From a virus: a stretch of DNA of 39,442 nt. The stretch is taken from IMG/VR virus record IMGVR_UViG_2166559002_000003, positions 1-39,442 of that record; one strand, written 5' to 3'. Position numbers and translations under genes: made by a program. Every line of letters starts with the position of its first letter. Position 1 is the first letter of the stretch. The notes below the pieces were generated by a model that was given only the letters and a program-made list of their open reading frames with translations, was not told where the DNA came from and made no database searches. This document shows positions 9,284 through 33,591 of this stretch, piece by piece.

Positions 9284-9296
9284 AAGAGGACCCCGC

Positions 9297-9518
9297 ATGG
9301 CCAAGCACGTGCTCACTCTCGCCACCCTCCAGGAGCTGGAAGGAGGGAAGGTCGATCTGCTCTTCCGCCAGGCGCTCTCGCGCGTCGTGGATGACTGCAA
9401 GGATCGCCCCAACGACCGGGCCATGTGCCGCGCCCTGGCGCACATCCAGCAGCGCGTGCGCGATTGCCTGCCGGCTGATGAGTCCGTGGCTCCCATCTAC
9501 CTGGGCTCGCCCTCGTGA
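9297..9518 (+). CDS. Conserved phage hypothetical protein, 73 aa
   Basis: ATG at 9297 is preceded by AAAGAGGA, and the stop overlaps the next GTG. The sequence VDLLFRQALSRVVDDCKDRP resembles the start of a small phage family with 'F...L...V.DC.DRP...ARKV.L...I.P', which I recall only as hypothetical proteins encoded near replication or recombination genes. The usual beta-rich C-terminal part seems shortened here: the sequence turns to CRALAHIQQRVRDCLP and ends soon after. The function is unknown. Confidence 0.6.
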   Translation: MAKHVLTLATLQELEGGKVDLLFRQALSRVVDDCKDRPNDRAMCRALAHIQQRVRDCLPADESVAPIYLGSPS

Positions 9519-9883
9519 CTCCACGCGCGGCCTGGTCGATCGAGCTGCCCGTGCGCCTGGCGTCCGCTGCCAACGCACACCTGCATCGCATGGCTCGGCA
9601 CCGGGTCACCAAGAGGCTCCGTGGCACAGCCAAGGCTGCCACCGTCGAGATGCCCTCCATCCCCGACGGTGGCGGCCTGGCCGTCACCCTCACACGGATC
9701 GCCCCCAGAGCGCTCGACGGACACGACAACCTGCGCGCCGCGTTCAAGCCCATCGTGGACGGCCTGGCCGATCGGCTGGGCGTCAAGGACAACGACCCGC
9801 GCGTGAGCTGGCACTACGCCCAGGAGCGCCGAGGGGTCCGCGACTACGCCATCACCATCCGCGTGGAACCCACCACGCCATGA
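9515..9883 (+). CDS. RusA-like Holliday-junction resolvase/endonuclease
   Basis: 122 residues from a GTG overlapping the previous stop. The diagnostic part is VTLTRIAPRALDGHDNLRAA, then FKPIVDGLADRLGVKDND and VSWHYAQERRGVRDYAITI. This follows the RusA layout: an Asp-Asn pair ('D..DN'), a Lys-containing helix, an Asp before a 'D.LG..D' turn and an edge strand. RusA enzymes cleave four-way junctions as dimers, resolving recombination or replication intermediates before packaging. The first acidic position reads DGHDNL rather than DDDNL, so metal binding may be altered. Assigned from motif order; activity is unproven. Confidence 0.65.
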   Translation: MTPRAAWSIELPVRLASAANAHLHRMARHRVTKRLRGTAKAATVEMPSIPDGGGLAVTLTRIAPRALDGHDNLRAAFKPIVDGLADRLGVKDNDPRVSWHYAQERRGVRDYAITIRVEPTTP

Positions 9884-9984
9884 CCGTCATCGTGCTCAAG
9901 GGGGACCAGCTCGCCGTTGACCGGCAGGCGGTCGAAGGGGGCGGGGCCACCTGCGTCCGCTGGATCGGGGGGCGCGGGCTGTGA
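9880..9984 (+). CDS. 34-aa ORF resembling the N-terminus of proteasome-like (Ntn) phage proteins
   Basis: A complete 34-codon frame begins at ATG 9880 (overlapping the previous stop as ATGA) and ends in GTGA with the next gene, so it sits in the coupled chain. The sequence MTVIVLKGDQLAVDRQAVEG resembles the first strands of HslV/proteasome-like phage proteins ('TTI..DG..LAADRQ.T.GG...TKI'), which usually run to about 170-200 residues. Only that start remains. It may be a degenerate remnant kept for translational coupling, or a small peptide gene. Confidence 0.5.
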   Translation: MTVIVLKGDQLAVDRQAVEGGGATCVRWIGGRGL

Positions 9985-10322
9985 GCGGCGGACATCCCGA
10001 CCCCGACAGCAGGTGGCGCGCGGCGCTCGACCGCTGGGACAGGCTCAACGACCGCAAGGAACTGTGGGAGCCGCTGTTAGGACTGCTCGCCGTCCCGCGC
10101 CTGGTCTGCCGGCAGCACTACTACGCGGACTACGCGGCTGCCGCGGACGACCCGTGCGCCACCTGCCCCATCGTGGACGCCTGCGAGAGCTATGCCGGGT
10201 TCACCAGGCAGCGGTTTGCCACCCGGGGCGCCCGCCCATGCTCCGCGGAGTACTACCTGCTGGCCAGGGCTCGGGCGTTCAAGCGGGTGGCTGCCCGGGC
10301 GCTGGAGGGCAAGAGCTCATGA
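9981..10322 (+). CDS. Cys-motif protein with WhiB-like C-x2-C-x5-C spacing, 113 aa
   Basis: GTG at 9981 overlaps the previous stop and the end overlaps the next start. The N-terminal helix (RWRAALDRWDRLNDRKEL) is followed by VCRQHYYADY and then DPCATCPIVDACESYAGFTR. One upstream Cys plus C-x2-C-x5-C is the spacing of WhiB-type iron-sulfur regulators. The second conserved block of WhiB (GVWGG) is not visible, and a later Cys (RPCSAEYY) is present. A small zinc- or Fe-S-binding protein is the safest reading. It precedes the replication initiator and could regulate it. Confidence 0.6.
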   Translation: MSGGHPDPDSRWRAALDRWDRLNDRKELWEPLLGLLAVPRLVCRQHYYADYAAAADDPCATCPIVDACESYAGFTRQRFATRGARPCSAEYYLLARARAFKRVAARALEGKSS

Positions 10323-11473
10323 TCCCACCGGCGCGTGCGGACAGGGCGCAGGTCCCCCGCTTCATCGCCGTGTGGCTGGCTGACCTGCATGGCAGCTCCG
10401 CCAAGGCGGCGATGAGCGGCCCGGCCTGGGGTCTCTACTGCGCCATGCTGCTCGAACAACCGCTCACCGGCGGCCTTCCCGCCGACACAAAGGCGCTCGC
10501 TTCTCGACTGCGCTACCCCACGCGCACGGTGCGTAACTTGTGGCCCGAGATCGCGCCCTACTTCGAGCTGCAGGACGGCCGCCTCGTCAACCCCCGCATG
10601 GCCGCCGAGGCCAGCAAAGCTGTGCATCGGAGCCAGATTCAATCCGACCGCGCCAAGGGCAAGAAGGGCACCCGTGGTCAAGCCGCGGCTGCTGCCACGG
10701 CTGCTGCCACGGCTGAGCTATGGCCCGAGCCGGGGCTGCGCCGCGGTGCCAACCTCTCAGACCCAGACCCAGACCCAGACTTACCCCCCTCGCGCGCTTC
10801 GCGCCCTCCCCCCGACGAGGAGCACGTGGTGGGTACGGTGCCGGAACCGTGCCCTCCACGTGGCGGGAACAGCGAGAGCTCGACGGGCAGCGACCAGGTG
10901 GACGGGCAGCCAGCGCAGCTCCAGCGGGCGCTCGACGCATTCCTCGCCGCTCGGCGCTCCCACGACGCGGGCGCCAGGCCCGGCAAGCCCTCGACCTGGG
11001 CCGAGCCCATGGCTCGCCTGCTCGAACAGCACGGCGCCGAGCAGGTGCTCGGCCTGGCCTCCTGGCTCTTCGGCACCTACGGACCCGAGAGACCGGACTT
11101 CGACTGGCGCAGCCGCTGCTTCACCCCCTACCACCTCGAACGGCAGTGGGACGCCCTGGTCGCCACCCGCACCGGGCAGCAGCAGGGTGGCGGACCAGCA
11201 GCCGCGGCAGCCTGCCCGTGTGGCTCCACCACCACGCCCGATGTCGATCTCGACGAGGACCGCCTGGAGTGCCTGCACCACGTGGTGCTCGCTCGCTCCC
11301 GCACCGTCCGCTGTGCTAACTGCCAGCAGCTGCTCGACCAGACGTTCCTCAAGGTCGATGCCTGCGACAGCTGCAACCCCGACGGCCAGGACGCCCACCT
11401 CCACGCCTGGGCGACCCAGGCAGCCGCTCACGCGCGGTCCCTGCACCAACAGAACCAAGGAGGCACAGCATGA
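10319..11473 (+). CDS. Probable replication initiator, DUF1376-like, with C-terminal zinc ribbon
   Basis: 384 residues from ATG 10319, which overlaps the previous stop; the frame is open further upstream but that part is a shadow. Residues 10-105 (VPRFIAVWLADLHGSSAKAA, GPAWGLYCAMLLEQPLTGGL, then RYPTRTVRNLWPEI and QDGRLVNPRM) match the DUF1376 winged-helix layout found at the N-terminus of phage replication organisers. A low-complexity linker follows, with DPDPDPD encoded by tandem ACCCAG repeats (10761-10778) and Ala/Thr repeats. Next is a helical domain (LDAFLAARRSHD to YHLERQWDALVA). The C-terminus carries Cys pairs (CPCG, CANCQQLL, CDSC) typical of a zinc ribbon. It probably loads host helicase at the phage origin. 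No primase, helicase or polymerase is encoded nearby, so host replication proteins are likely used. Confidence 0.65.
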   Translation: MIPPARADRAQVPRFIAVWLADLHGSSAKAAMSGPAWGLYCAMLLEQPLTGGLPADTKALASRLRYPTRTVRNLWPEIAPYFELQDGRLVNPRMAAEASKAVHRSQIQSDRAKGKKGTRGQAAAAATAAATAELWPEPGLRRGANLSDPDPDPDLPPSRASRPPPDEEHVVGTVPEPCPPRGGNSESSTGSDQVDGQPAQLQRALDAFLAARRSHDAGARPGKPSTWAEPMARLLEQHGAEQVLGLASWLFGTYGPERPDFDWRSRCFTPYHLERQWDALVATRTGQQQGGGPAAAAACPCGSTTTPDVDLDEDRLECLHHVVLARSRTVRCANCQQLLDQTFLKVDACDSCNPDGQDAHLHAWATQAAAHARSLHQQNQGGTA

Positions 11474-11694
11474 ACCCGCCTACCGCCAAGGGCTGGACAC
11501 CCATCCAGATCAGCATCGCCATCGGCTGGCTCGACACGTCGCCCGGTGCGCCGACCACGCTCTCGGTCACCGTGGACGACAGCGACGAGGAAGCACGCCG
11601 CCGCTCCCCCTTGCCCGACCACCGCCTCTACCTCGTGCACCGCGTAATCAACGTGCTCATGCCGGACCCACCCGAACCAGAATCCCAGGAGTGA
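11470..11694 (+). CDS. Hypothetical protein, 74 aa
   Basis: ATG 11470 overlaps the stop of the replication initiator (ATGA). The protein is small with no Cys motif or membrane segment. A central acidic patch (TVDDSDEEARRR) precedes PDHRLYLVHRVINVLMPDPP. No family was recognised. The coupling suggests co-expression with the initiator. Confidence 0.5.
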   Translation: MNPPTAKGWTPIQISIAIGWLDTSPGAPTTLSVTVDDSDEEARRRSPLPDHRLYLVHRVINVLMPDPPEPESQE

Positions 11695-11697
11695 CCC

Positions 11698-11866
11698 ATG
11701 AAGACTGAATCGACCGCCGTGACCCTGCGCCTGGAGCGACTGTCCCGTGTACGAGGCCACCCACGGCGAGTGGTGCCACGCGGAGCACGAGGACGTTGAG
11801 CCCGTTTGCACGACGTGCCACCATAGACGGGAGGCGCGTAGAGCACTGGAGCCCGTGCAGCGATAA
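11698..11866 (+). pseudogene. Frameshifted small zinc-finger-like gene
   Basis: The ATG at 11698 opens a frame that turns Arg-rich after about 15 codons and stops at 11799. A different frame, bounded by a TGA at 11720-11722, runs to 11866 and is protein-like: PCAWSDCPVYEATHGEWCH, then a short acidic stretch and CTTCHHRREARRAL. It contains C-x4-C, Trp-Cys-His and C-x2-C-H-H, a plausible zinc site. Its only in-frame start is a GTG at 11747, inside the motif. The simplest reading is a single-base indel near 11715-11730 joining MKTESTA to the Cys-rich part. Alternatively, only the short GTG version is made. Confidence 0.4.
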
Positions 11867-12806
11867 TCTAGCGTCGCCGCTGCGATGGCGTGTCCCCAGG
11901 GTCGTGTGCGTTACCAGCGACCTGTTCCACGCGGACGTGCCTGACGAGTTCATCGCTGATGTGTTCGGAGTCATGGCCGTGGGCGGCGGCGCGTTCCATT
12001 GCGGTCGCAACGCCAAGCGCAAACTCGGTCCCAACCACTACGCGGTGGGCATGGCAGACCCGAGGATCTACGGCCCGCACACGTTCCTGCTGCTGACGAA
12101 GCGCCCCACCCGGATGCAGCGGCTGCTCGCCAGCCGGAGCTTCCGTGCGTCGGTTGCGCGAGCGGCGTTCCGGCACGCGCACAACCGCACCGATGCGGGC
12201 TACCTGGCGCACCAGATCGACACTCGGCAGCAGGAGGCGCGCTGCTACGACCCCGGGCGACTGTGGCCTCTCCCCAACGTCCGCCTCGGCGTGTCGGTGG
12301 AGGACCAAGCCGCTGCGGATGAGCGAATCCCGATCCTGCTCGACACGCCTGCGGCAGTCCGGTGGATCTCCGCCGAGCCGCTGCTGGGTCCGGTGGACCT
12401 CGACCCGACGCGGTGCGACATCTGCGGCGGCCCGCCGACCTACGGGGAGCCGGTGTCGCAGCCGTGGTGCCTGGACTGCGATCACGAGTGCGGCATCTAC
12501 CTGGATTGGCTGAACCCAGCTGGCCTTGACTGGGTGGTGGTCGGCGGCGAGAGCGGCCGCGGGTCTCGACCGTGCAACGTCGCGTGGATTCGATCGGTCG
12601 TCGATCAGTGCAGCGATGCTGGCGTGCCGTGCTTCGTCAAGCAGCTCGGGGCGCGGCCAGTAGTCACCGTCCCATACCCGAACGAGAACTGGGAGCTCCG
12701 CGGGAGGGACACACCACTGCCCATCACCAACCGCAAGGGGGCCGACCCGTCGGAGTGGCCCAGGGATCTGAGAGTGCAGGAGTTCCCCAAGGAGAACGGA
12801 TCATGA
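11796..12806 (+). CDS. DUF5131 (phage Gp37/Gp68-like) protein, N-terminally truncated
   Basis: 336 codons from a weak TTG. Recognisable DUF5131 sequence starts only near residue 27 (LRWRVPRVVCVTSDLFHADV) and continues through LTKRPTRMQRLL, LGVSVEDQAAADERIPIL, RWISAEPLLGPVDLD, DWVVVGGESGRGSRP and VPCFVKQLGARP. Full-length members begin with a radical-SAM-like cluster ('WNP..GC..VS.GC..CYA'), which is missing here. The first 25 codons overlap the Cys-rich frame of the preceding broken gene, so a deletion may have removed the 5' ends of both. A later Cys pair block (CDICGG, CLDCDHECG) is an insertion. The family's biochemical role is not established. Without the N-terminal Cys cluster the protein is probably inactive or repurposed. 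Confidence 0.7.
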   Translation: MSPFARRATIDGRRVEHWSPCSDNLASPLRWRVPRVVCVTSDLFHADVPDEFIADVFGVMAVGGGAFHCGRNAKRKLGPNHYAVGMADPRIYGPHTFLLLTKRPTRMQRLLASRSFRASVARAAFRHAHNRTDAGYLAHQIDTRQQEARCYDPGRLWPLPNVRLGVSVEDQAAADERIPILLDTPAAVRWISAEPLLGPVDLDPTRCDICGGPPTYGEPVSQPWCLDCDHECGIYLDWLNPAGLDWVVVGGESGRGSRPCNVAWIRSVVDQCSDAGVPCFVKQLGARPVVTVPYPNENWELRGRDTPLPITNRKGADPSEWPRDLRVQEFPKENGS

Positions 12807-20290: not shown

Positions 20291-20953
20291 TCAACGCTTC
20301 CGCGGCGCCCCGACCAGCACGGCGGAGATCGGAGCCTCCCCGTCCAGCCAGGCCCGCGCGCCCCGGTAGCTCTCCATGGCCTGCGTCATCGGGAGGTGGG
20401 CCACGATGCCCGACAGTGACAGGAATGCCCGGACAGCGGCCTCGTCCATCTCCCCTTGAGCCGCCTGCGCCCAGGCGTTCATGCCCTCCTGCAGCACGCC
20501 GGCTCCGGCTGTCCCCTGGTAGCGGAACCCCCGAGCCGCGGCCCCGAACTCCCTCAACCCCACCCAGAGGCCCAGCACCTCGGCTGCCGTCCGCCGGGCT
20601 GTCTCCTTGAGGAACGGCTCGTCGTCATCGTCCCCGCGGAGCATGTGGGTCATGATCTGTTCCCAGATCATGGGCGCGATGAAGATCAGGGTCATTTCCA
20701 TCGCCCAGCGAGCCACCGTCTTCGGGTCGCGCACCTTCATGCGCGCCGTGGACTCGGCCGTCAGGTTCAGGGTGCGGCTTGCGAACCCGTAGAACGTGGT
20801 CCACATCTTCTGCCACTCGCTGCCCCGAGCGATGCCGGCCATCTCGGCGACGCGCCCGCTGCCCTGGCTGGCCACCACAGCAGCGTCCGCAAGCTCGATC
20901 GCCACGGGATCCCAATCCAGCGGGTCGTGCGCCTTGCCAGCCGGCGGCAGCAC
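20291..20953 (-). CDS. C-terminal continuation of the giant polyvalent protein in the -1 frame
   Basis: From the G6 run at 20953-20958 the protein-like sequence leaves the long frame and continues in the -1 frame: VLPPAGKAHDPLDWDPVAIE, then ADAAVVASQGSGRVAEMAGI, WQKMWTTFYGFASRTLNL and a hydrophobic helix (ARWAMEMTLIFIAPMIWEQI), to TAG-side residues ISAVLVGAPRKR. The 220 residues match the helical, partly membrane-like C-terminal domain typical of large phage polyvalent proteins. The long frame instead gives Arg/Trp/Ser-rich sequence and stops at 20767. No ribosome binding site or start is seen for independent translation, so this is either reached by frameshifting or separated by an indel. 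Confidence 0.8.
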   Translation of the reverse strand: MLPPAGKAHDPLDWDPVAIELADAAVVASQGSGRVAEMAGIARGSEWQKMWTTFYGFASRTLNLTAESTARMKVRDPKTVARWAMEMTLIFIAPMIWEQIMTHMLRGDDDDEPFLKETARRTAAEVLGLWVGLREFGAAARGFRYQGTAGAGVLQEGMNAWAQAAQGEMDEAAVRAFLSLSGIVAHLPMTQAMESYRGARAWLDGEAPISAVLVGAPRKR

Positions 20954-23900
20954 CCCCCGGCCTTCTCGTAGGCCGCGATCCAGCTCGGCAGGTCCACCAT
21001 GGCCTGAGTGAAGGCCAGCAGGGCGAAGCTGCTGCGCTGGATCGCCCCGTGCACGTCTCGGCCTCGGGACACCTGAGCAAAGCGCCGGTACTGTTCCGCC
21101 ACTTCGCGCTGGAACGTCTTGTCGCGGTTGGCCATGGAGCTGCTGGCCTGTATGACCTGGTGGTAGATGGCTGCCACCTGCAGAGGCTGGGAGGCCAGCC
21201 GGGTGATGGCTCGCAGCACAGGGATCGGCCCGGACACCACCATCGACTGCGTGATGCCACCCAGGTTGATGAGGTTCGTCGTGATCCGCCATCCGAGCCG
21301 CATCACGATGGTGCCGGCCCGCATCTGGCCGAAGACACGCGCTCCCGCGTCGTTCAGGGCGCCCGTGCCCATGGCCATGTCCCGGTAGGCGTTCAGGAAC
21401 TGCCGGTAGACCGCCTCCCCGTAGCGCTCCTCGATCGCCAAGCGGACAGGCTCTCCGTGCAGCACCGCCTGCATGTCCCGCAGCGCTTCGAGGTGAGTGA
21501 TCATGTGAACCGCCTCGGCCAGGTGTCCCGTCACCACGCCGAAGTCCAGCCGCAGATGGTCGTTCACGTGCCTCGCGCGCTCGATCATCGAGCCGGCCTT
21601 GGTGGACACCCGCGTTGCCGTCCCGGTCTTGAACCGCTCCAGCTGCTGCTCCGGGCTGAGCTCATGGATCCACTTCGCCCCCGCGTACTTGATCCGGTGG
21701 TAGCCGCCCTGCCAGCGCACGGTCTCGCCACTCGGGCTCTTGGACGCGAAGGCGGTGGCCGGCACCTTGATCGGGGCGATGCCCTTGATCCGTTCCCAGA
21801 GCGCCTTGCTCTCCGGCCAGAAGCTGTTTTCCAGGTCCCAGATGATGGCGGCCATCTGGGCGTGCCGCGGCTCCAGCGTGTCCAGGATCGCCTGCACCTG
21901 GCGCGAGTCGAACGTTGTGAGCAGCCGCTCTCGCCCCTCCCTGTTGCCGTTGTTGAGCGCCACCATGAAGCGCTGCTGAAGGGACAGCGGGATGTCCACC
22001 CCAGGGATCTCTCGCGGCCGACCCCACTCCCGACGATCCTCGTCGGTGAACAGCTCGCGCATGGCACTCAGCTGCTCGTTGATCCGATCGGCGTGGGCCA
22101 CCTCGGCGTTTTCGGCACGAATCCCAGGACGCACCAGGAACTGACTCAGAGGCCCGTCGTCCGAGCCGTCGATCTGTCGTGCCAGGCTGTCGATCGCCCG
22201 GTGGGCCGAGCTGAAGTGAGCCAGCTTTCCCTGCCGCTCCTGGTACGCGATCTTCCGCGGCGCTCGGCTGTGCTCGACCCGCCTCGCCACCGCTACCTGG
22301 GCATCCTCGGCGCGCATCCGGCGCCGCACGGTGGTCATCCAGCCCTTGCTCTGCCCGAAGTGACGCACCTGCTTCCAGGCGTCCATCACGTCCTCGATCT
22401 GATCCACCGTCAGGTCGGTGTAGAGCACCCGGGCCTCGGGCCGGTCGTCCAGGATCCAGGGCATGATGTCCGGCGCCAGCTCGCCCGCCTTGTCCAGGGA
22501 CGCCAGCCAGCCGGCCAAGGACATGGTGGGCTGCAGGTCGGGGTTGCTGTACTGCCGTTCCAGGCCCACGCGCTGCAGCAGGCGCAGCAGCTGCCGGCGG
22601 GCCTCCACGCTGCCCCGGCCCACGCCCGCCATGATGTCCTTGCGGCGCAGGAACTTGGCGTAGTCGATCAGCTTCTTCAGCGCCTTCTCGGCGACCAGCG
22701 CCAGGCGGAACGATTCGTAGTTGAACAGCTCCCGCTCCTTCGCCTGGGCCGCCGCGTAGAACTCGCCTTTCCTGACCAGCGCGGCCGATTTGCTGCTCTC
22801 CCGGCGCGCCGCGGCCAGGAAGGCGTTGGGACGGATCCGATTCACGGGCAGCGAAGCCATGGCGGCGGCTGCCTGCTTGCGGATCTGCGGCAGCGTCTTG
22901 GCGCCGGGCAGGGCGCGCCGGCGGTGGGTCACCTGGGGGGCCACCGCGGAGCCGGCCATGGTGGCCGTCGCCTGCCCACCCTCAGCCAGGTCCGCCCGCC
23001 GGCGGAGCAGCCGGCGGTACTCGCTGAAGATCCGGCGAGATCTCGATTCGGTGTCCCTGGCCCGCCTCTGGAGCGCCCTGATCGAAGCCGTGCCCATGAG
23101 CTCAGGGTGCTGCTCCTGCAGCGCCTGGCGGGCCATGCGGTCCACCACGTCATCGCGGCGCTCGGCCACGGTCACCATCCCGTTCAGCAGCACGTCGGCA
23201 GACCGCGCACCGAACGATTCAGCGGCCTCGGCCGGGGTCATCCCGTCGTCGGCAAGAACTCCCATCCCCTCCAGCGCAAGCGTCAGGGATCCGTCCTCGC
23301 CGTACTCCGCCTCGACGGCCGCGCGCGACAGCTTGCCCTGGGCCGATGCGGGCAGGTGAGTCCCGTCAGGGTGCTGCCCGTCGCGCATGTTGGCCAGCGC
23401 CACGGCAGGGGGCGTGTTGCCCAGCTCCTTGGACGCCTTGCGGCGCAGCGATGCCATGCGCCTGCTCCGCTTCTCCTTGACCAGCTCGGCCAGACTCATC
23501 GCGGTCGCTCGGCCCGCCGCCACCACCCCGTCCGCCTCATCGTCCGACACACTCTTGAGGTAGGCGGCTCGGTCCGCCTCCGACAGATCCGCGAGGGTGT
23601 CCTCGGGCAGCGGCTCGGCCGTCAGCTCGTACCGGTCGGCCGCGATCTCCTCGTCCGTGGCCAGCATCCGCTCGAACACCCCGCGGATCTCAGGCGACAG
23701 CTCGAACTCGAACCCCGCGGCCCGGTAGATGCCCTTGATCGAGTCGTAGAGCGCCGTCATCCAGCTGTGAATCGCCGCGAACGCCCCGCGCAGCTTCTTC
23801 GACGGCGCCTTGCCATCCATCAGCCAGGCCTCGAAGGTCCGCGCGATCTTCTCGTGGTGTGCTGTCGTCAGCTGGCTTACGTGACTCACCCCGACGTAGG

Positions 23901-26900
23901 CCAGCAGCTCGTGGAAGTCGTCCACCACCGCCTGGGGCGCGCCGTCTCGGGCCGCCAGGTCGCCCATGATCGTCGTCCACACGTGGGCCATCTCGTGCAG
24001 GAAGGTCGAGCGGTCCCGCGAACGGAACAGCTGGATCAGGAACGCACGCCGTCCGGTGGAATCCATGGCGCCGAACGTCGTGGCGCCCTGCGGGCCGCCA
24101 TCCGGCGCGGCCCCACCCTGCCGTTCACCCTCCTCGGGCTGCTGAAACAGAGGGAAGCCGCGCTGCAGGGCCGCGTCGCGCAGCTCCTTCGTGAGGGTGA
24201 ATCCGTGCTGCTGATCCTTCGGAGGGCGACCCTCATCGTCCCGGGCATCGTCGGGCATGTCCATCCGCTCAACCTTGGCGCCGTACTTCTTCACCAGCTT
24301 GCGCGCCACCTGGGGCAGGATCGCGTCGTAGAACGACCGCATCCCCTTGCCGCCGACCTGCAGGTCCTTCTCTTTGTAGATCCGCCCGGGCACGTACGCA
24401 GGATCGGTCAGCTGCTCCGCGTCGGTCAGGCGCCCCGCCGCTTCGTTGACCGCATCCACGGCGTCCTGCTTCACCGTGGTGCCCATCACATTCTCCATGA
24501 ACCGACTCTCAGGGTCCTCGACGATTCGGAGCAGGCTCACCCGCCTTCTCTCCACCAGGTCACGCAGCTCGTCGCGCGAGAGGGCTTCTGGTGATAAGCG
24601 GGCCGCCATCGCCACGTCTTGCGCCACCAGGCTCAGCACCGTGTCCTCCAGCTCGGTGACACCCTTGAAGTGTTGACCCTGACCGTAGAGCAGGCCGTCC
24701 GCCAGCAGCTGTAGGGGCCGGTCCTCATCCCCTGACAACACCATCGCTTCGCGCCCGCCCTCCCGGTTCAGGAACCGCTCCGCCATCTCTTTGCCGATCA
24801 CCGATTCCAGTGAGTGATCTGTGTACTGGTGGGCGTTTCTCCCGAACGCCCTGACAACCTGACCGGTCTCGTTCACAACAACATCCATGGCCGGATCCAC
24901 TGAATGCTGCTCCTCGCTGGTCAACCTGATGAGCCCGTTGCCCGCATCGGTGACCCGGATGCTCTCAACGAAGTGAGACAGCTCGTAGCGCTCGTTCTGG
25001 ACCGCGCCGCTGGTCCACATCACGCGATCGAACCCGTTTTCCGCGGCCAGCCGGATCACGCGCTTCAGAGCCAGGCTGGTCCACTCCTTCGTACGTGTCA
25101 CGAACGGCCCGGAATCGACAGCATCTTCCGGCTCCAGCTCCAGTAGCTCGCCAGTCCTGAAGGCGCTCTCTCGCAGCGCCAAGCTGGCTGCCTCGGTCGA
25201 GCGCCCGAGCAGCTGCACGACCGACATGGCCTGGACGTGACTCAACGCCTGCTGCAGGTCGTCACGCCACACGTAGCCCGGAAGCGGCGCGCGCAACAGT
25301 GGGGACCGGAACTCTACCTGTGGATCTCCGCCGTCTGGGGACGGGACCCTCACCAGCTCCAACGACTCTGCGATCCGGTGTGCCAGGGCCTGCCGTGCCA
25401 CCTCCGTGGCGTCCTGGCTCGCTTCGTAGTCTGCGCGGATCCGCTCTTGGTCGGCAGCGGAGTAGAACCCCTCCTCGCGCCCACGCTGTGCCCAATCCGA
25501 CTGCACCTCCTCCAGGAACAACACACGCTCGCCAGTCTCGGAGTCGATCCGCGTCTTGAATCGCACGTGGGCCAGCACCGATCCGCCCATCGGATTGAAG
25601 TGCTGGCCGTGGAACGTCGGCGCCCCTTCTGGGGAGGACGGCAGCACCAACAGAAGCTCCCGGTAGCCCTCACCGCCGGACAAAGAGTACTGCTCGAACA
25701 GATACTCGTCGGCGTCTACGTCTTCCACGCGCACCTGGTGGGCATCCATCCACTCCACCACCTCGCCCGTGGTCGGTGCGCGATGCAGGGTGTCCTTGAA
25801 GTCCTGCACGTAGCCGCCCACGTCGAGCCACTTCAGCTCCTCGGCCTTCACGCCCCGCTTCCGCAGAGCCGCCTCGATCTGCGCCTTGCTCCAGCGCGCA
25901 TCCTTCGGCAGCCCCCGAGCGGCATCCAGGGCCTTGCTGTAGAACGGGTCCGCCGGAGCCGGCGCCGGCCCCTGGAACAGCCGCTGGTACAGGGTCTTGC
26001 CCTCATCCACCTCCATGATCTCCTGGCCGGCCATCACGGCCGCCGTGGCCCGGGCCATCCCCTCTCCGGTCGGGATGAAGTAGCGCCGCTTGTACTGGTG
26101 CGTCTCCATGAACACGCCGGCCTTCTCCAGCACCGGCAGGTTGGCGAAGGTGGGACCGATCACCTCGATCCGTCGCTCGCCGGCCACGGTGACGGGCTTG
26201 ATCTGCCAGTGGTTGGTGAGCGTGAAAGTGGACCCGCGCAAGACGATCGGACCCACCTCGGCGGGCGCTATCTCGATCTTCCGCCGGCCCACCCCCAGCT
26301 TCCGCTTGGTGGAGTCCACCAAGCCGTCGGGGACCTCCCGCCCGATCACCTTGCGCCCGTCGGGCAGCGTCGCCCGGTAGACCTTCCCGAAGTCGGGCAG
26401 CCGGTCCCAGATGGGTAGCAGGAGCCCCGTGACCAGGTTCACTTCACGTGTCGCCTCGTTGGGCGCTGCGGCGTACTGCTTGCGCCAGAGTCCCGCTGCC
26501 TCGTCATTCGTTGCGCGGCGCCAGTTGCCTCTCCTGGATCCCTCGCGGAGCAACGCGGTGGACACTCGATCACCGGTCCCTCCCGGACCGTGCATCACAC
26601 GCACGAGCGACGCCACGCCAGACTTATCGGTGTCCGTGACGCTCCGGCCGGCTGCCCACACCCTACCCGAACGGGTGTTTACGAAGAAGTCCTGCCAGTA
26701 GACCCGGGCCTTGGCCCAATCCGTTTTCGGGACTGGGTTGGTGACATTCAACGTCAGCCAGTGGGTCTCGTTGCCTGTGCGCTCATCGACGCGGACCACA
26801 TCGTCCTGCTCGACCGTGAGCCGGTCCGCCTTTAGCTCCTGCATCCCCGAATCGAACGTCCCACGCGCGATGGCCGACTCAATCTCCGCGTCCAGGTTGG

Positions 26901-29900
26901 CGCTGAACTGGTCGAACAGCGCCACCTGGCGGTCCGGTCGAAGCGAAAGCATCCGGTTTAGGAACTGCGTCACCTTCGGGTAGCCGCCTTCGTTGACCGT
27001 CCCGTCCTTGCTGATCAGCGAGTGCAAGCCCATCTCGTCGGTGAGGCTCTTGGCGTCCCACCCCTCCACGCGCCCCTCCAGAATGGCGTTGATCGTCCAG
27101 CGCACGGCGGGCGCCGAGTAGGGTCCCTCCAGGTTGTCCCGTTCGCTGAAGACGGACGCACCCGCCGTTCGCTGCCCCCGCGTCAGCGCCCCCAGCTGCT
27201 CGATGCGGCGCGCCACCGAGCTGATGAACCGCTTGTGACCAGGCAGGTTGGTGGTCACCAGGATGTACTCGGGGGGCTGGGCCTGGTTGCTGCGGTGAGA
27301 CCGGCCGAAGCCCTGGATCGTGATGTCCGCTCGCCACCCGGGCTGCATCACGTAATGCCGGCGCAGCTGCTGGTTCTTCGCCTTCAGGTCCGCGTGGTAG
27401 CCGGCCCCCGTGCCTCCCGCCATGCTGAACAGCAGCACCCGCTTGCGCCCCGCCTGGAAGTCCGCGATCGAAGCCGCGTTGGCCTTCGCCGGGTTGCGCT
27501 TGACGACCACCTGCTTGCCATCGCGGTAGACGATCTTGTTCTGCCGCGCCGTCACCTCGGCGATGGCGTCGTCTCCCAGCTCCCGAGCCAGGAACTCGAT
27601 CGGACCCATAGAGATCGGCAGCTCCATCACGTCGGCGATCAGGGCGTCCCGCTTCGCCACACTGTCCGGGTCCTGCACGAAGTCCCCCTCCGAGTGCACC
27701 ACCCTCCCGTGCGCGTCGGTCACGTCGGTCATGTACTGCCTGGGGACCCAATTGTCCTTGCCGTCTTCGGTCGGCTGGTTCTCATACTGCTGCGTAGGGA
27801 ATGCCTGCTTCAGGTAGTTGATCAGCACTTCCTTCGGCGACACATCTAGCTCCTCGTCGTCCACCACCTCGCCAGCGGCCTCGGCCTTCTTCCGCGCAGC
27901 GACCGCACGCTTCAGCGCCGCCTCCTGGTGTGTCGTCAGCTGCAGGATCACCGATCGCCCGGCCGCCAGGTCCTTCTTGATCCCGGCTACCATGGTGGGC
28001 ATCTGCAGAGAGATCAGCAGCTGGTCGTAGAACCGCAGATTCGCGCTCCAGAACGCGCCGACCTTCTGACCCCGCGCGTTGCCCTTGTCGGCCCCGGTGT
28101 CCTTCATGACCTCGTGCATGTTCTGCAGCGCCACCTGCCAGGCGTCTGCTGCGCGCTCGTACATCAGCGTCTGCTCGGGCGTCAGCTCGTGCTCCATGCG
28201 CTCGTAGGTGACGCCCTTCATGCTGATCGTGCGCGCCGTGTACAGCCCCTGCTGCTTCAGCTCGCTGGCCACCTGTTCCATGGCTGCCAGGCCACCCGTG
28301 GCGATCTTCTCTACGAACTCCATCGCATTGGGGAACGGCGTCCCGATGCCCCAGAGGCCCAGCCGCTCGGCGTAGCCCAGGTTCGCCACCTCCGTGGCGC
28401 CCGTCGCGCTGGCGTACACCACGCGCGCGTTCGGGAAGGCGCGCTGCAGGAACAGCCCGGCCTTGGCGCGAGCCGAAGCCCCTTTGCTGCCGCGCTCGCC
28501 TTCGACCCCCAAGGCCCTCGACATGAAATGGCTCTCGTCAAAGACAATCACCCCGTCGAAGTCTGGCCCCAGCCACTCCACCAGCTGGTCCAGCCGCGTC
28601 TGCTTGCCTTCCGCCTTGCTGCGCTGCTCCTTCAGGTCTCCAGTGAAGGCCGCACCGCTCTTGAGCGCGTCGTAACTCAGGAACGCCACACCATCCTTGT
28701 CCGGCATCCGGTCCTGGGCACCCACCTTGCGGACCTCGATCAGATTCGAGTCAACCGGCCCGAAGTCCGCCCAGCCCTTCATGGCGTCGGCGAACAGCGA
28801 GGGCTTGGCGGACAGCCAGACGTGACGCCGGCGCCCCTGCCGGATGTTGTCGCGGATGATGCCGATGATCTCCCGGGTCTTCCCAACCCCCGTGCCGTCG
28901 CCGATCATGAATCCGCGCCGTGTCACTCCGTCGGGCAGCACCTGGTCGTGCGCCTGCCCGGCGAACACCACCGTCTCCAGCTGCGCATCCGACAGCGCTG
29001 CCATCTCCTCATCGCTGAGCGTCGGCTGGTAGGTGGGCGCGGGCCGCTTGGCAGCCTTCATGGCCGCCGACTCCACCAGATCGGCCGGATGGGGCACAGG
29101 ACCCTCCGGCCGGCTCACCACGCTGGCGTACTCCTCGAAGACAGCGCCCTCTTCGGCCTGGTCTGCGCTGGCCTCCTCGATCACCTCGATGCTGGCCGGG
29201 TCGTCCGGCTCGGCGAGCCGTGGCGCAGCCGGCTCAGCGGCTACGGGGGCGTCGCGTGCAGCGGGTGCGTCTGGCGGGGTGGCCAGTTGTCCCTCTGGCT
29301 GCCCAGCAGCTCGTTCAGGTGCTCCACCAGGTCGTCCGCCATCTCCTGCGGCTCCTGGCTCCGCCACTCCTTCGGCAGGCGCCCCAGGTCCCTCAGCGCC
29401 TGCAGGGCCTCTTCCTTGCCCCTCCACGACCGTTCGATCAGCTGGTCGGCCACCAGCTGCATCACCGCTCCCGCGTGCTCGTTGAGCATCGCCCCCGACT
29501 CCTCCGCCCGAGTCAGCCCCAGCTTCAGCAGGAGCAGCACGGGGGGCACCGTCGGATCCGGGGACGGGGCGCCCAGCGCCTCCAGTGCCTTCTCCGCTGC
29601 CCGGTTGTCCGGGTCCTGGAACAGCGCGTCGGCCTTCATGGATCAGATCCTCCAGTCCCGATAGTAGCAGCGATGGCGAACCCGCGGGGTCTGCAGCCGG
29701 GTCGAAGTGCGTGGACAGCCCCTCGGAGGGGGCCACGGCATCGAAGATCAGCACGTTGGTGCCGAAGGACGTGCCCATCTTCCGGTAGACCTTGCCGTCC
29801 ACCTTCACAACGGCGCGCAGCGAGTAGTTTGCCGCCATCTTGCGGAACCAGGCCGCGTAGCTCGGCGCGCTGGGGAGCATCCCCTCGCCCACGATGGCCA

Positions 29901-32900
29901 CCAGCCGGCCGCCCGGGAGGACCCGGCGCATGGCCTGCTCAATGTGCCGGCCCGCCACGCCCAGGTCATTCTTCACGCCCCGGTGACCGGCGTTGCTGAA
30001 CGGGGGATTCAGGATCACCACCGAAGCGTGCACGTCGGCGGGCAGGACCGCGTGCAGCGCCTCGGCGTCCTCGCCGAACACGGTCTCCACGCCCAGCTCA
30101 TGCAGCAGCGCCGCGCGCAGCGGGTCGATCTCGTTGGCGATCACCCGGGCGCCCGACCGGATCGCGGGCGCCAGCAGGTTGCCAGTGCCCGCCGAGGGCT
30201 CCAGCACCACGTCGCCGGCGCCGAGGCCGGCCAGGATCGCCACGGTCTGGGCGTAGTCCTGGGGCGTGCTGAACTGCTGGAAGGCTTCTTTGGTGCCCGT
30301 CCGACGGGTCTGGGTAGGGATCCGACCCACGATCGCGCCGATCTCCTCGATCGCGGCCAGCAGCTCGGGCAGGGTCGCGTCGGGATCCAGCGGCGGCAGC
30401 CGGGCCACCCGGCGGTTCACGGCGAACTCCGTCGCGTTGGCCAGGTCCTGGGCGTCGTAGATGCCCTGGGCCATCGTCCCGCCGAAAGCGCGGTTGGCCA
30501 GCTCCTGCAGGTCGCGCCAGGTCAGGGCCTCGTCGCCGTCCAGCACCAGGTCGAGCGCGTTGGCCAGCCGGCGCGCGGCCGCGATCTTGTGGGGGACCGA
30601 CTCCGAGACGGGTGCCTGGGGCGGGCTCGGGAGGGGCTCCTGGCCCGTCGGGGGCTCGGGGGTGTTGGGCACCGCATCGACGGGCGAGGCCGGTTCCTGG
30701 GCAGCCGTGGGCTGGTCTGGCGCCTGCTGGGTACTACCGGAGGGTGTTGCCTCGTCCGCGCGGCCCGGTGCTGCCGGAGCATCCGGCGCCGGTGAGGTGG
30801 ACACGGGCTGTCCACCCGGGGCGGCGGCCGGGGCGGCCGGGGCAGCCGGGCGGCTCAAGGGCTCTGCGTCCTGGGGATCGGGCGGTGGAGGGGAGGGGAA
30901 CTCCTCCGCCAGCACCGGGTCCCGGGGCGCCGGGGGCTCGGAGGTGGACACACGCTGTCCACCTGGCGTGCCGATAGCGGGTTCCCGGCTGCTTATAGGC
31001 ACGCTATCGGCAACGCCGGGCACCCCAGACGGATCAGAGGAAGGCCCGGGAACAGCCTTTCCAGGCCCTGATTCCGGCGTTGCCGCCGGCTTGCCGATAA
31101 CGGCTTCGCGGCTGCCTATAGGCACGCTATCGGCATTCTCCGGCGCGGGTGCGGTGGGATGCTCCTTGTCCACCTGCGCGGCGTCGGCGCCCTGGATGTC
31201 CACCGGGAACAGCTGGTCGATCTCCTCCTCGGTCAGGCCGTTGCGCTCCGCGGCCACCCTCACCATCTCGGTGAAGGTGAGCGCCATCACGCCCGCGTCG
31301 TCCTCGCTGAAGGACCCCTCGCGCACCAGCATCTCCTGCACCCGGCGCAGGCGCTCCTTGCGGCGCTTGCGGCGCGCCACCCGAGCGTCGGCCATGTCCT
31401 GCAGCCGGCGGTCGATCAGCGCCCGGCGCTCCCGGGCCGCGGCCAGCTCGGCGGCCGCTTGGTCGTTTGGATGCTTGTCGTCCATCCCGGCCGCTTCTTC
31501 GCGGTCGAGCTGTCCCTGCTCCAGCCTGATGATGGTCTCGTCCAGGGTGGCCGCTTCAGAGCGCAGGTCGCGCTCGTCTGCACTGAACACGGCTTCCTCG
31601 GCCGCGCTGCGCTGCGCCACGGTCGCGGCCGTCTGCTCCGCGCGGGCCTCGGCGATCAGCTCCTGGATCCCCGGTAGCTCGTCTTCCGCCTCCGTCAGGG
31701 TCGGCCCGTCCTCGCGCAGGCGGGCCACCTTGATCAGCTCCTCGGGGTCGGTGGTCTGGGACAGCTCCAGCAGGGAGTCAGCCAGCGGGATCTCAACCTG
31801 GCCGCTGCTCGTGGCGCGCGTGTAGGCATCGCGCCCCCCCTCGGAGATCCGCGCGGCCTCTTCGGCCGGCGACTTGCCCTGCTCGGCCCAATGTCGATTC
31901 CACTTGTCCAGGTCCACCCGAACCACGCCCGCGTCGGGGTCCGAATCGGTCAGCTGGCTCTCCAGGTACGACGCCGCCTCAGCCCGCCGGCGGCCAGCTA
32001 GCTTCGAGTCCCGCAGCGCCGCCGCCGCCCGGCGCACGCTGTCGGCGTCCTGGTGCGCCGTCATGCTCTTGGTCAGCGTCTCCAGCTTGGCCTGGTGACG
32101 ATCTGCCTGGGTCCGGTGGTGGTAGCCGAGGCCCACCTCGACCACCGCGTGCGGGCCGGCGACGCCCGCTTCCATCAGCGCCTCGCCGAGCGGGTCCCCA
32201 GCGAACCCCTTGCGCGCCGCCACGTGGCTGACGAACTCGCCGGCGAACTCACCGCCGACGTTGAACGCACCTTCCGTCACCGCCGCCCGCACGATCTGGC
32301 GCTTGGTGCCCCCCGCAGCCTTGGCCAGCCAGTGACCGCCGATCCCCATGGTCAACGTCTCGACCACGCCGACCACGAAGCCCTTACGCTTGGCCTCGCC
32401 GAGCGCCTGCTTCATCCAATCCTGGTCCCGGTACTTGGCCAGGATCGCCGCGCCGTCGTGCAGGTTCACGTTGTCCCGCTGCAGGGCGTCGGTGATCCAG
32501 GCGCCCATCTCGACAGCCATAACCCCGCTGAAGGTGCCCACCACCCCACCGATGGCACCACCGGCCACGGCCCCCGCGGCAGCTCCCTCGGGACCCAGCA
32601 GGGCGCCGTAGGATCCGCCCATCTCCGCGCCCGTGCCCGCTCCCAGCGCCGAGCCGGCCACGATCGGGATCATGTTCCCCAGCTGGCCCAGGCTCTCGGC
32701 AGCCAGGCCCTCCAGGTTGGACGGCAGCACCAGCAGCTTCTCCCATCCCTTCGCAGCAGCTAGGCGACGCCGATAGGCCTTGATGTCTGGATCCGCCTTG
32801 GCCCGCTCCTGGTCCGCCCGCCGGTAGGCGTCCGCCGCGGCGTAGGCGGCTCCCTCCAGCCCGCCCGGCCCGATCCCGAAGATCGCCGTCAGGTGATGCA

Positions 32901-33591
32901 CCCCAGGCTCCAGGTCGAGCGCTCCCTGCTTGGTGCTCGCCACCATCTCGTCGAACCAGGAGCGCTCCGGGCGGAACGTGGACAGCGCGTCGTTCAGGCG
33001 GTAGAGCGACTCCAGGTCGTCCTGCGCCATCGCCGCGTGGTCACCGTTCTGCAACCACGCCGACAGGCGGGGGGCAGCACGAATGATCGCCCCGTAGTCG
33101 TGCTCCGCGGCGTATCGGAACGCCAGATCCTTGCTCTCGGCAATGGCCATCCCGGCTGGCCGAGGCAGCCCCAGAACCTCGGAGATACGCAACGCCCGAG
33201 CGTGTTGGTCCGGGTCGATGCCCGAGACGGCATTGAGGACCCGCCCCGTGCGTGCCGCCTGAGCGTTCAGGTAAGCCTGAACACCAGGGCTCACGGAAGG
33301 CCCGGATGGATGAGCGCCCGGCGGCAACGCGGGCATTCGGAGTGGCTCGTCAGGAATCCGCTGGCTGGCGAACCCGTCCAGCAGCAGGGGGACGGAAGCC
33401 GGCCGCGGGGGCTGCTTGCCGTTTTCGATCCCACCTGGCCCCCGGGCGGGGCGCGGCTGGAGCGTGAAAGGATTGGGGCGTGCGACCTGTACGGCGCGGC
33501 CGCGGCGACCCGGCCGATTCCCAGAGGGGTGGTCCCCGTCCCCGGGATCAGGCCCCGGCGTCGGCCCCAGCACTGGTACGCGCGGCGTCAC
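20767..33591 (-). CDS. Giant polyvalent ejection protein: methyltransferase, Strawberry-notch helicase, EVQSDW module, zincin
   Basis: 4274 codons from GTG 33589-33591 (GAGGA six bases upstream), or about 4433 residues with the -1 extension. Approximate order: an FRYAAEHD module (150-215); Gly-rich hydrophobic segments (280-400) suited to membrane insertion; coiled coil (655-755); Pro-rich linker (815-1000); an N6-adenine-type methyltransferase with EPSAGTGNL (about 1131) and NPPF (about 1195); a low-complexity linker (1315-1450); an SF2/Strawberry-notch helicase with GDGTGVGKT (about 1563), DESH (about 1680) and QGFGRSHRSNQ (about 2092); a VTGLLLPIWDRLP region; an LPD-type module with FLEEVQSDW (about 2693); a metallopeptidase with STFLHEMAHVW (HEMAH 3199-3203); and a long helical C-terminus. 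Polyvalent proteins like this (DarB-like fusions) enter the cell with phage DNA and counter host restriction or remodel the DNA. Its place after gp14/gp15-like genes equals that of T7 gp16. Confidence 0.85.
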   Translation of the reverse strand: MTPRVPVLGPTPGPDPGDGDHPSGNRPGRRGRAVQVARPNPFTLQPRPARGPGGIENGKQPPRPASVPLLLDGFASQRIPDEPLRMPALPPGAHPSGPSVSPGVQAYLNAQAARTGRVLNAVSGIDPDQHARALRISEVLGLPRPAGMAIAESKDLAFRYAAEHDYGAIIRAAPRLSAWLQNGDHAAMAQDDLESLYRLNDALSTFRPERSWFDEMVASTKQGALDLEPGVHHLTAIFGIGPGGLEGAAYAAADAYRRADQERAKADPDIKAYRRRLAAAKGWEKLLVLPSNLEGLAAESLGQLGNMIPIVAGSALGAGTGAEMGGSYGALLGPEGAAAGAVAGGAIGGVVGTFSGVMAVEMGAWITDALQRDNVNLHDGAAILAKYRDQDWMKQALGEAKRKGFVVGVVETLTMGIGGHWLAKAAGGTKRQIVRAAVTEGAFNVGGEFAGEFVSHVAARKGFAGDPLGEALMEAGVAGPHAVVEVGLGYHHRTQADRHQAKLETLTKSMTAHQDADSVRRAAAALRDSKLAGRRRAEAASYLESQLTDSDPDAGVVRVDLDKWNRHWAEQGKSPAEEAARISEGGRDAYTRATSSGQVEIPLADSLLELSQTTDPEELIKVARLREDGPTLTEAEDELPGIQELIAEARAEQTAATVAQRSAAEEAVFSADERDLRSEAATLDETIIRLEQGQLDREEAAGMDDKHPNDQAAAELAAARERRALIDRRLQDMADARVARRKRRKERLRRVQEMLVREGSFSEDDAGVMALTFTEMVRVAAERNGLTEEEIDQLFPVDIQGADAAQVDKEHPTAPAPENADSVPIGSREAVIGKPAATPESGPGKAVPGPSSDPSGVPGVADSVPISSREPAIGTPGGQRVSTSEPPAPRDPVLAEEFPSPPPPDPQDAEPLSRPAAPAAPAAAPGGQPVSTSPAPDAPAAPGRADEATPSGSTQQAPDQPTAAQEPASPVDAVPNTPEPPTGQEPLPSPPQAPVSESVPHKIAAARRLANALDLVLDGDEALTWRDLQELANRAFGGTMAQGIYDAQDLANATEFAVNRRVARLPPLDPDATLPELLAAIEEIGAIVGRIPTQTRRTGTKEAFQQFSTPQDYAQTVAILAGLGAGDVVLEPSAGTGNLLAPAIRSGARVIANEIDPLRAALLHELGVETVFGEDAEALHAVLPADVHASVVILNPPFSNAGHRGVKNDLGVAGRHIEQAMRRVLPGGRLVAIVGEGMLPSAPSYAAWFRKMAANYSLRAVVKVDGKVYRKMGTSFGTNVLIFDAVAPSEGLSTHFDPAADPAGSPSLLLSGLEDLIHEGRRAVPGPGQPGSGEGTGGAGRPVPGSDGAPRAAPAEAGADSGGGVGGDAQRARGSGDAAGGRPADRTVVEGQGRGPAGAEGPGAPAEGVAEPGAAGDGGRPGGAPERAAGQPEGQLATPPDAPAARDAPVAAEPAAPRLAEPDDPASIEVIEEASADQAEEGAVFEEYASVVSRPEGPVPHPADLVESAAMKAAKRPAPTYQPTLSDEEMAALSDAQLETVVFAGQAHDQVLPDGVTRRGFMIGDGTGVGKTREIIGIIRDNIRQGRRRHVWLSAKPSLFADAMKGWADFGPVDSNLIEVRKVGAQDRMPDKDGVAFLSYDALKSGAAFTGDLKEQRSKAEGKQTRLDQLVEWLGPDFDGVIVFDESHFMSRALGVEGERGSKGASARAKAGLFLQRAFPNARVVYASATGATEVANLGYAERLGLWGIGTPFPNAMEFVEKIATGGLAAMEQVASELKQQGLYTARTISMKGVTYERMEHELTPEQTLMYERAADAWQVALQNMHEVMKDTGADKGNARGQKVGAFWSANLRFYDQLLISLQMPTMVAGIKKDLAAGRSVILQLTTHQEAALKRAVAARKKAEAAGEVVDDEELDVSPKEVLINYLKQAFPTQQYENQPTEDGKDNWVPRQYMTDVTDAHGRVVHSEGDFVQDPDSVAKRDALIADVMELPISMGPIEFLARELGDDAIAEVTARQNKIVYRDGKQVVVKRNPAKANAASIADFQAGRKRVLLFSMAGGTGAGYHADLKAKNQQLRRHYVMQPGWRADITIQGFGRSHRSNQAQPPEYILVTTNLPGHKRFISSVARRIEQLGALTRGQRTAGASVFSERDNLEGPYSAPAVRWTINAILEGRVEGWDAKSLTDEMGLHSLISKDGTVNEGGYPKVTQFLNRMLSLRPDRQVALFDQFSANLDAEIESAIARGTFDSGMQELKADRLTVEQDDVVRVDERTGNETHWLTLNVTNPVPKTDWAKARVYWQDFFVNTRSGRVWAAGRSVTDTDKSGVASLVRVMHGPGGTGDRVSTALLREGSRRGNWRRATNDEAAGLWRKQYAAAPNEATREVNLVTGLLLPIWDRLPDFGKVYRATLPDGRKVIGREVPDGLVDSTKRKLGVGRRKIEIAPAEVGPIVLRGSTFTLTNHWQIKPVTVAGERRIEVIGPTFANLPVLEKAGVFMETHQYKRRYFIPTGEGMARATAAVMAGQEIMEVDEGKTLYQRLFQGPAPAPADPFYSKALDAARGLPKDARWSKAQIEAALRKRGVKAEELKWLDVGGYVQDFKDTLHRAPTTGEVVEWMDAHQVRVEDVDADEYLFEQYSLSGGEGYRELLLVLPSSPEGAPTFHGQHFNPMGGSVLAHVRFKTRIDSETGERVLFLEEVQSDWAQRGREEGFYSAADQERIRADYEASQDATEVARQALAHRIAESLELVRVPSPDGGDPQVEFRSPLLRAPLPGYVWRDDLQQALSHVQAMSVVQLLGRSTEAASLALRESAFRTGELLELEPEDAVDSGPFVTRTKEWTSLALKRVIRLAAENGFDRVMWTSGAVQNERYELSHFVESIRVTDAGNGLIRLTSEEQHSVDPAMDVVVNETGQVVRAFGRNAHQYTDHSLESVIGKEMAERFLNREGGREAMVLSGDEDRPLQLLADGLLYGQGQHFKGVTELEDTVLSLVAQDVAMAARLSPEALSRDELRDLVERRRVSLLRIVEDPESRFMENVMGTTVKQDAVDAVNEAAGRLTDAEQLTDPAYVPGRIYKEKDLQVGGKGMRSFYDAILPQVARKLVKKYGAKVERMDMPDDARDDEGRPPKDQQHGFTLTKELRDAALQRGFPLFQQPEEGERQGGAAPDGGPQGATTFGAMDSTGRRAFLIQLFRSRDRSTFLHEMAHVWTTIMGDLAARDGAPQAVVDDFHELLAYVGVSHVSQLTTAHHEKIARTFEAWLMDGKAPSKKLRGAFAAIHSWMTALYDSIKGIYRAAGFEFELSPEIRGVFERMLATDEEIAADRYELTAEPLPEDTLADLSEADRAAYLKSVSDDEADGVVAAGRATAMSLAELVKEKRSRRMASLRRKASKELGNTPPAVALANMRDGQHPDGTHLPASAQGKLSRAAVEAEYGEDGSLTLALEGMGVLADDGMTPAEAAESFGARSADVLLNGMVTVAERRDDVVDRMARQALQEQHPELMGTASIRALQRRARDTESRSRRIFSEYRRLLRRRADLAEGGQATATMAGSAVAPQVTHRRRALPGAKTLPQIRKQAAAAMASLPVNRIRPNAFLAAARRESSKSAALVRKGEFYAAAQAKERELFNYESFRLALVAEKALKKLIDYAKFLRRKDIMAGVGRGSVEARRQLLRLLQRVGLERQYSNPDLQPTMSLAGWLASLDKAGELAPDIMPWILDDRPEARVLYTDLTVDQIEDVMDAWKQVRHFGQSKGWMTTVRRRMRAEDAQVAVARRVEHSRAPRKIAYQERQGKLAHFSSAHRAIDSLARQIDGSDDGPLSQFLVRPGIRAENAEVAHADRINEQLSAMRELFTDEDRREWGRPREIPGVDIPLSLQQRFMVALNNGNREGRERLLTTFDSRQVQAILDTLEPRHAQMAAIIWDLENSFWPESKALWERIKGIAPIKVPATAFASKSPSGETVRWQGGYHRIKYAGAKWIHELSPEQQLERFKTGTATRVSTKAGSMIERARHVNDHLRLDFGVVTGHLAEAVHMITHLEALRDMQAVLHGEPVRLAIEERYGEAVYRQFLNAYRDMAMGTGALNDAGARVFGQMRAGTIVMRLGWRITTNLINLGGITQSMVVSGPIPVLRAITRLASQPLQVAAIYHQVIQASSSMANRDKTFQREVAEQYRRFAQVSRGRDVHGAIQRSSFALLAFTQAMVDLPSWIAAYEKAGGCCRRLARRTTRWIGIPWRSSLRTLLWWPARAAGASPRWPASLGAASGRRCGPRSTGSQAAP
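20953..20958 (-). other. G6 run at the frame change in the giant gene
   Basis: Minus-strand codons GCC GGG GGG TGC. Re-reading the last G gives GTG CTG CCG CCG and the natural C-terminal sequence. Slippage of tRNA-Gly on GGG GGG by -1 is possible at the second codon (GGG to GGG). A homopolymer sequencing error or a real inactivating insertion would look identical. Confidence 0.8.
29241..29639 (-). CDS. Nested 132-aa gene inside the giant gene, +1 frame
   Basis: ATG 29637-29639 is preceded by GGAGGATCTGATCC, a strong Shine-Dalgarno at a suitable distance. It opens a 132-codon frame with more than 90% G/C at third positions and balanced composition: MKADALFQDPDNRAAEKALE, a hydrophobic helix (VPPVLLLLKLGLTRAEESGA), AVMQLVADQLIERSWRGKEE and LEHLNELL-type helices to the TAG at 29241. 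In the same stretch the giant frame is only Gly, Ala, Pro and Arg, as expected for an out-of-frame reading. The gene therefore appears to be translated on its own, and the giant protein uses its shadow as a linker between methyltransferase and helicase. The function is unknown; a helical regulator or partner of one of those domains is a reasonable guess. Confidence 0.7.
   Translation of the reverse strand: MKADALFQDPDNRAAEKALEALGAPSPDPTVPPVLLLLKLGLTRAEESGAMLNEHAGAVMQLVADQLIERSWRGKEEALQALRDLGRLPKEWRSQEPQEMADDLVEHLNELLGSQRDNWPPRQTHPLHATPP
30796..30963. repeat. Two copies of a short palindrome GGTGGACA-N5-TGTCCACC
   Basis: Perfect 8-bp inverted repeats with a 5-base spacer occur at 30796-30816 (spacer CGGGC) and 30943-30963 (spacer CACGC). 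Both lie in the Pro-rich linker of the giant gene and encode GGQ(P/R)VSTS. The flanks also match (GAG before and CC after). They could form hairpins in mRNA. Confidence 0.85.
30969..31135. repeat. Two copies of an 11-bp inverted repeat (TGCCGATAGCG ... CGCTATCGGCA)
   Basis: Copy one (30969-31012) has perfect 11-bp arms and a 22-base spacer. Copy two (31092-31135) has the same layout with one arm mismatch. TATAGGCACGCTATCGGCA is identical in both. They encode ADSVPI(G/S)SRE..IG.P in the linker of the giant protein. The first starts only six bases after the second short palindrome ends, so the elements are clustered. Confidence 0.85.

Follow-up and report, generated by a model that had tools for sequence, protein, structure and literature searches.

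Within the linker of a phage gene that fuses a DNA methyltransferase to a strawberry-notch helicase there very probably lies a conserved protein-coding gene in another reading frame, which would be initiated independently and yield a free, small helical product. The example analysed here comes from 39,442 nucleotides of viral DNA (IMG/VR virus record IMGVR_UViG_2166559002_000003, positions 1 to 39,442; hereafter the window), in which an earlier note, made by a model from the sequence alone, had singled out a 132-codon open reading frame (ORF) inside a giant gene. The sequences of the window and its relatives indicate that these bases code in two frames and that this dual coding is conserved.

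The nested reading frame in the window

The giant ORF occupies positions 20767–33591 of the minus strand and, as judged from its length and domain matches, encodes a polyvalent virion-type protein of 4,274 amino acids (aa). The nested ORF lies inside it on the same strand, from an ATG at 29639 to a TAG at 29241 (29241–29639, 132 codons), and its start is offset from that of the giant gene by 3952 nt (3 × 1317 + 1), which places it in the +1 frame. Its location is the one that the earlier note gave, between the methyltransferase domain (giant residues 1094–1284; positions 29740–30312, minus strand; phrog_9133, E = 3e-20; phrog_6263, E = 5e-11) and the helicase (giant residues 1500–2251). The latter comprises the strawberry-notch ATPase domain AAA_34 (giant residues 1500–1812; 28156–29094, minus strand; Pfam E = 3e-99) and the strawberry-notch C-terminal domain Helicase_C_4 (giant residues 2001–2251; 26839–27591, minus strand; Pfam E = 5e-73). 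The predicted GGAGGA Shine–Dalgarno (SD) sequence is also present (29648–29653, minus strand), 8 nt before the ATG, and a TGA in frame with the nested ORF stands two codons upstream of the start (29643–29645, minus strand). The overlap is therefore complete and out of frame with both frames open, as in a nested overlapping gene.

Base composition agrees with the very high third-position GC that had been noticed in this frame. The GC fractions at codon positions 1, 2 and 3 are 0.77, 0.43 and 0.94 in the nested frame and 0.94, 0.77 and 0.43 when the same bases are read in the giant frame; the nested-frame pattern resembles that of the giant gene as a whole (0.72, 0.49 and 0.86). By the same measure and by residue composition, the giant-frame linker (29146–29640, minus strand) appears as a low-complexity shadow of the nested gene. 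Across the nested gene, G, A, P, R, E and D account for 84% of giant-frame residues, and V, I, L, M, F, Y and W contribute 6%, compared with 27% in the nested frame, which bears out the contrast drawn earlier between balanced nested residues and a G/A/P/R linker, once E and D are added to the latter. In codon usage the nested ORF scores 0.98 bits per codon above the giant frame; all other alternative-frame ORFs of at least 70 aa in the giant gene fall between −0.7 and −1.4, leaving it the only one with codon usage better than that of the giant frame. That the ORF is more than a chance occurrence follows from homology, start-site conservation and avoidance of stops across many relatives.

Conservation and selection in both frames

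The window's copy is divergent, and for this reason the protein search proposed in the earlier note, with the 132 residues as a direct query against phages and IMG/VR proteins, found no match. The search succeeded in another form: a family profile built without the window matched exactly one of the 524 window ORFs, the nested one (E = 1.5e-8). Relatives were reached through the helicase, which led to 49 IMG/VR loci. Among nested proteins, BLASTP gave 146 pairs at E < 1e-3 (a few of them near-identical copies), and the profile also recovers loci outside it (L137–L139, L140–L143, L145 and L146), with E-values of 1e-12 to 1e-24 for L137, L140–L143 and L146, which had not been used in its construction. 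At L144, an ORF at the expected place had no profile match.

A +1 nested gene between the methyltransferase and the strawberry-notch helicase is found in phages, plasmids and genomes, at over 45 loci in all. At every locus where the methyltransferase could be mapped, it is in frame with the helicase, and nearly all of these loci carry an ORF of 109–156 aa at the same place, always in the +1 and never in the +2 frame. Whole-contig searches revealed one nested copy per virus record, always at this site. The gene also resides on Methylococcales and Thioflavicoccus plasmids, and plasmid MEALZ_p of Methylotuvimicrobium alcaliphilum 20Z has the nested arrangement; the annotation of the cultured plasmids lists the host gene only. 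At L002 (4121–4462) the predicted nested product is 114 aa long. Further copies are on genome contigs labelled Methylovulum, Syntrophobacteraceae, Firmicutes, Oscillospiraceae, Defluviitaleaceae and Deltaproteobacteria. The nested gene is absent from L025, L030, L041 and L049 and from the alphaproteobacterial plasmids L003 and L004, and the linkers of all these except L041 are short. When presence or absence was placed on a methyltransferase–helicase tree of 81 loci, three changes were required, compared with 26.8 when the states were shuffled.

A few loci depart from the common pattern. In place of the nested gene, the giant-frame linker of L041 (7032–8000, plus strand) has extra sequence that is not of low complexity and has no Pfam match. 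L050 encodes a polyvalent protein with a strawberry-notch helicase (20–12604, plus strand) in which the nested gene still precedes the helicase but a methyltransferase could not be detected. L022 carries a second possible +1 ORF, of 77 aa, upstream of the methyltransferase (6292–6525, plus strand), with codon usage better than that of the giant frame and no counterpart in sister loci.

The start of the nested gene is embedded in a conserved giant-frame motif, LEG(I/V)RN(D/E)R, the codons of which spell GAGGG..AATGA, and in long-linker loci the start and its SD occupy one conserved place. An SD match of 4 nt or more precedes 93% of nested starts, against 18% of the 991 ATGs in that frame that served as controls, and a stop in the nested frame lies a median of seven codons upstream. 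The giant-frame codon that supplies the AT of the nested ATG has the form NNT in 31 loci where 11.8 would be expected (product P = 2e-16). In L033 the start is uncertain, with a GTG one codon in. The earlier note had made its proposal of a separate protein depend on conservation of the nested start and frame in related phages; related phages, and plasmids too, have in fact kept the start, the ribosome binding site, the frame and the sequence.

Substitutions among relatives, like the codon-position GC, favour the nested frame. Differences are commonest at the nested third position, which is the giant first position, in seven of eight pairs (the eighth and most diverged, L002/L044, ties), and the nested second position, corresponding to the giant third, is quietest in six of the eight, the reverse of expectation for a gene that uses the giant frame only. 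Together with the sequence matches among nested proteins, this shows purifying selection on, or conservation of, the nested frame across relatives. The giant frame is also kept open. Synonymous shuffling of nested codons at 38 loci, many of them AT-rich, predicts 192 giant-frame stops across the nested gene, and none was observed; in the third frame, stops occur as expected under the same shuffle. These loci are partly non-independent, and most are only 20–30% identical in the nested protein. As a control, the shuffle was applied to those parts of these genes that encode methyltransferase and helicase, where 585 stops were observed and 706 expected; the null is thus too high by about a fifth. 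Read with this control, the count of zero against 192 points to selection that keeps the host frame open. Stand-alone homologues, by comparison, have 4–12 stops in the frame matching the giant frame. Because of these stop counts and the nested-frame substitution pattern, we conclude from sequence comparison that both the giant fusion frame and the small nested gene are under selection.

Origin and possible role of the nested protein

The earlier note had predicted that stand-alone homologues would support a separate protein, and profile searches of bacterial genomes revealed them. Thirteen copies are ordinary non-overlapping genes, in the phylum of a Deltaproteobacteria metagenome-assembled genome (MAG; G041), and form a single clade (Shimodaira–Hasegawa-like approximate likelihood ratio test, SH-aLRT, 100). 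A further stand-alone copy, from the Firmicutes search (L280), has seven stops in the −1 frame. The Methylococcales copies recovered were nested or, in a single instance, truncated. Genes next to the stand-alone copies, named by eye, vary (rubrerythrin-like, Ppx/GppA-like, NUDIX and pcm-like), and context therefore gives no function. In one case (L275, 7327–8124, plus strand) the homologue and a NUDIX (MutT-like) domain form a single uninterrupted ORF of 265 aa. In L260, L264 and L267 the copy is of the nested type, its shadow frame short and open, and neither methyltransferase nor helicase stands beside it; these may be relics or fragments.

The earlier note had left open whether the gene was overprinted or inserted with the shadow frame retained as a linker. 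De novo overprinting would require that there be no non-overlapping homologues, and thirteen were found; insertion fits better. Codon usage is normal in the nested frame, and its protein has homologues that overlap no other gene; we therefore infer that this frame is probably the older of the two and the linker a later shadow. The tree of stand-alone and nested copies is unrooted, and the nested gene may alternatively have escaped to stand alone. It is possible, rather than probable, that a bacterial-type gene was caught between the methyltransferase and helicase genes, that a linker frame was opened through it by overprinting in reverse, and that the old protein is now a partner or regulator of the fused mega-enzyme. 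One ribosome would then make the fusion and another the old protein. This suggests a route by which proteins could be fused without loss of the gene between them, by reading that gene in another frame.

Models made with AlphaFold2 from family alignments predict an all-helical protein for both the window copy (predicted local distance difference test, pLDDT, 84.4; predicted template modelling score, pTM, 0.76) and L013 (pLDDT 88.7; pTM 0.84). Structure searches at E ≤ 0.001 found no match in the PDB for either model or in BFVD for the first, and VIA Z was at most 3.8 for both, which does not establish a new fold. Profile searches of PDB sequences returned weak, implausible matches only, and searches of Pfam, PHROGs, NCBIfam and PADLOC revealed no known family, only single-member matches below threshold. 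The idea of a DNA mimic was dropped: many members are acidic (isoelectric point 4–5), yet several are near neutral.

In the mechanism that we favour, ribosomes would start independently at the SD and ATG built into the LEG(I/V)RN(D/E)R codons and translate the nested frame into a free, small, usually acidic protein with the predicted all-helical fold. Other ribosomes, translating these bases as part of the giant frame, would produce a presumably disordered tether that joins the two enzymes. Made from the same mRNA as the methyltransferase–helicase, the nested protein would always be present with it. We tentatively suggest that it may be a trans-acting accessory or regulator of this anti-restriction module. 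Several observations weigh against this explanation as a whole. The window's nested copy is divergent (30 bits), and alphaproteobacterial loci manage without a nested gene, with linkers of about 93–135 aa (one apparent 167). Moreover, no strawberry-notch helicase was found in the 13 genomes with stand-alone homologues, some of which are MAGs and perhaps incomplete; the protein can therefore function without that enzyme, which weakens the case for a dedicated subunit.

The last observation is equally what would be expected if the nested gene were independent cargo with its own cellular target, such as its chromosomal relatives must possess, riding in the mega-gene without acting on it, and the survival of copies in the absence of methyltransferase and helicase (L260, L264 and L267) fits as well. 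Such cargo, for which dual coding would still hold, is a serious possibility of which we are doubtful, because the gene's association with the helicase is long-standing and fixed and nested copies are never seen in another host gene. L050, which retains the nested gene beside the helicase even without a methyltransferase, ties it to the helicase, albeit at one locus only. Of the two roles, we consider that of an accessory or regulator of the module slightly more likely than that of independent cargo.

Explanations that dispense with a resident dual-coding gene fare far worse. Were methyltransferase, small protein and helicase three ordinary cistrons, with the giant frame open by chance in GC-rich DNA, the window alone would not be very surprising (P = 0.05); the missing 192 stops at loci that are often AT-rich refute this for the family, and the stops in stand-alone homologues and the single frame shared by methyltransferase and helicase at every locus tested make it highly improbable. 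Just as improbable is an inserted homing or selfish element that is read in another frame, in the manner of the ShiLan HNH element of phage methylases (PMC11855218): searches of Pfam, PHROGs and NCBIfam with 36 members found no HNH or other nuclease family, and the gene keeps a fixed site with an SD and a distribution that follows the methyltransferase–helicase tree, whereas ShiLan has no detectable ribosome binding site and is patchy, with a disjunct spread among close relatives that is not seen here. Two compensating frameshifts, through sequencing error or programming, would explain why codon usage is normal in the nested frame and not in the giant frame, but are scarcely credible when dozens of independent assemblies, complete plasmids included, share the arrangement, the nested start has its SD, ATG and upstream stop, and both frames are kept open.

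The host gene and comparison with known systems

The giant protein carries, in addition, an LPD22 domain (giant residues 119–207; 32971–33237, minus strand; Pfam E = 6e-14), which together with the methyltransferase, AAA_34 and Helicase_C_4 in one frame identifies it as a methylase–strawberry-notch polyvalent protein. Its C-terminal region is common to podoviruses like Bordetella phage BPP-1, and the gene adjoins tail and internal-virion genes; from these features the methyltransferase–helicase module is probably virion-associated. The C-terminal part also contains a HEMAH (HExxH) motif, as in zincin metallopeptidases (giant residues ~3199–3203; ~23983–23997, minus strand), conserved in BPP-1-like relatives. 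Among the relatives of the window, helicase matches are split by insertions, mostly of hundreds of bases, in L029, L031, L034, L035, L036, L048 and L049, possibly inteins or introns.

Polyvalent proteins with methylase–helicase dyads, including a Methylomonas strawberry-notch protein, have been described (PMC5512222), and the host gene resembles them as a large multidomain phage or plasmid protein with an adenine methyltransferase and a strawberry-notch ATPase. No nested or overlapping gene came up when the text of that paper was searched. It was the only paper found on strawberry notch and bacteriophage, in mainly open literature where absence of a report is no proof; as far as this literature goes, the nested protein family appears to be previously unreported. 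Genes that are fully nested out of frame, ancient and conserved from one bacterial phylum or phage group to another are rare and are skipped by gene finders. Here a whole unannotated family lies within the gene of anti-restriction polyvalent proteins, and it is present on the plasmid of a cultivable methanotroph.

The closest published arrangement is ShiLan, in which the host frame likewise stays open across an out-of-frame insert, and which is characterized by an HNH nuclease, homing, patchy distribution, no ribosome binding site and use of the third frame (PMC11855218). The nested gene described here differs in having no recognised nuclease, a conserved SD, a constant +1 frame and a fixed place between methyltransferase and strawberry-notch helicase, and in its spread over phages, plasmids and several phyla.

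Classical nested phage genes, such as E within D of phiX174 and Rz1 within Rz, combine complete out-of-frame nesting with separate initiation. The present gene shares the nesting and, we infer, the separate initiation; the proteins are unrelated, and here, unlike in those cases, non-overlapping homologues exist and it is the host frame that looks like the shadow. Cas11 is made by internal initiation inside cas8 or cas10d, in frame, and is part of the large protein's sequence. It offers a parallel in manner of working only: there too, translation inside the gene of a large enzyme yields a small helical protein, whereas the nested gene described here differs from its host in both frame and sequence.
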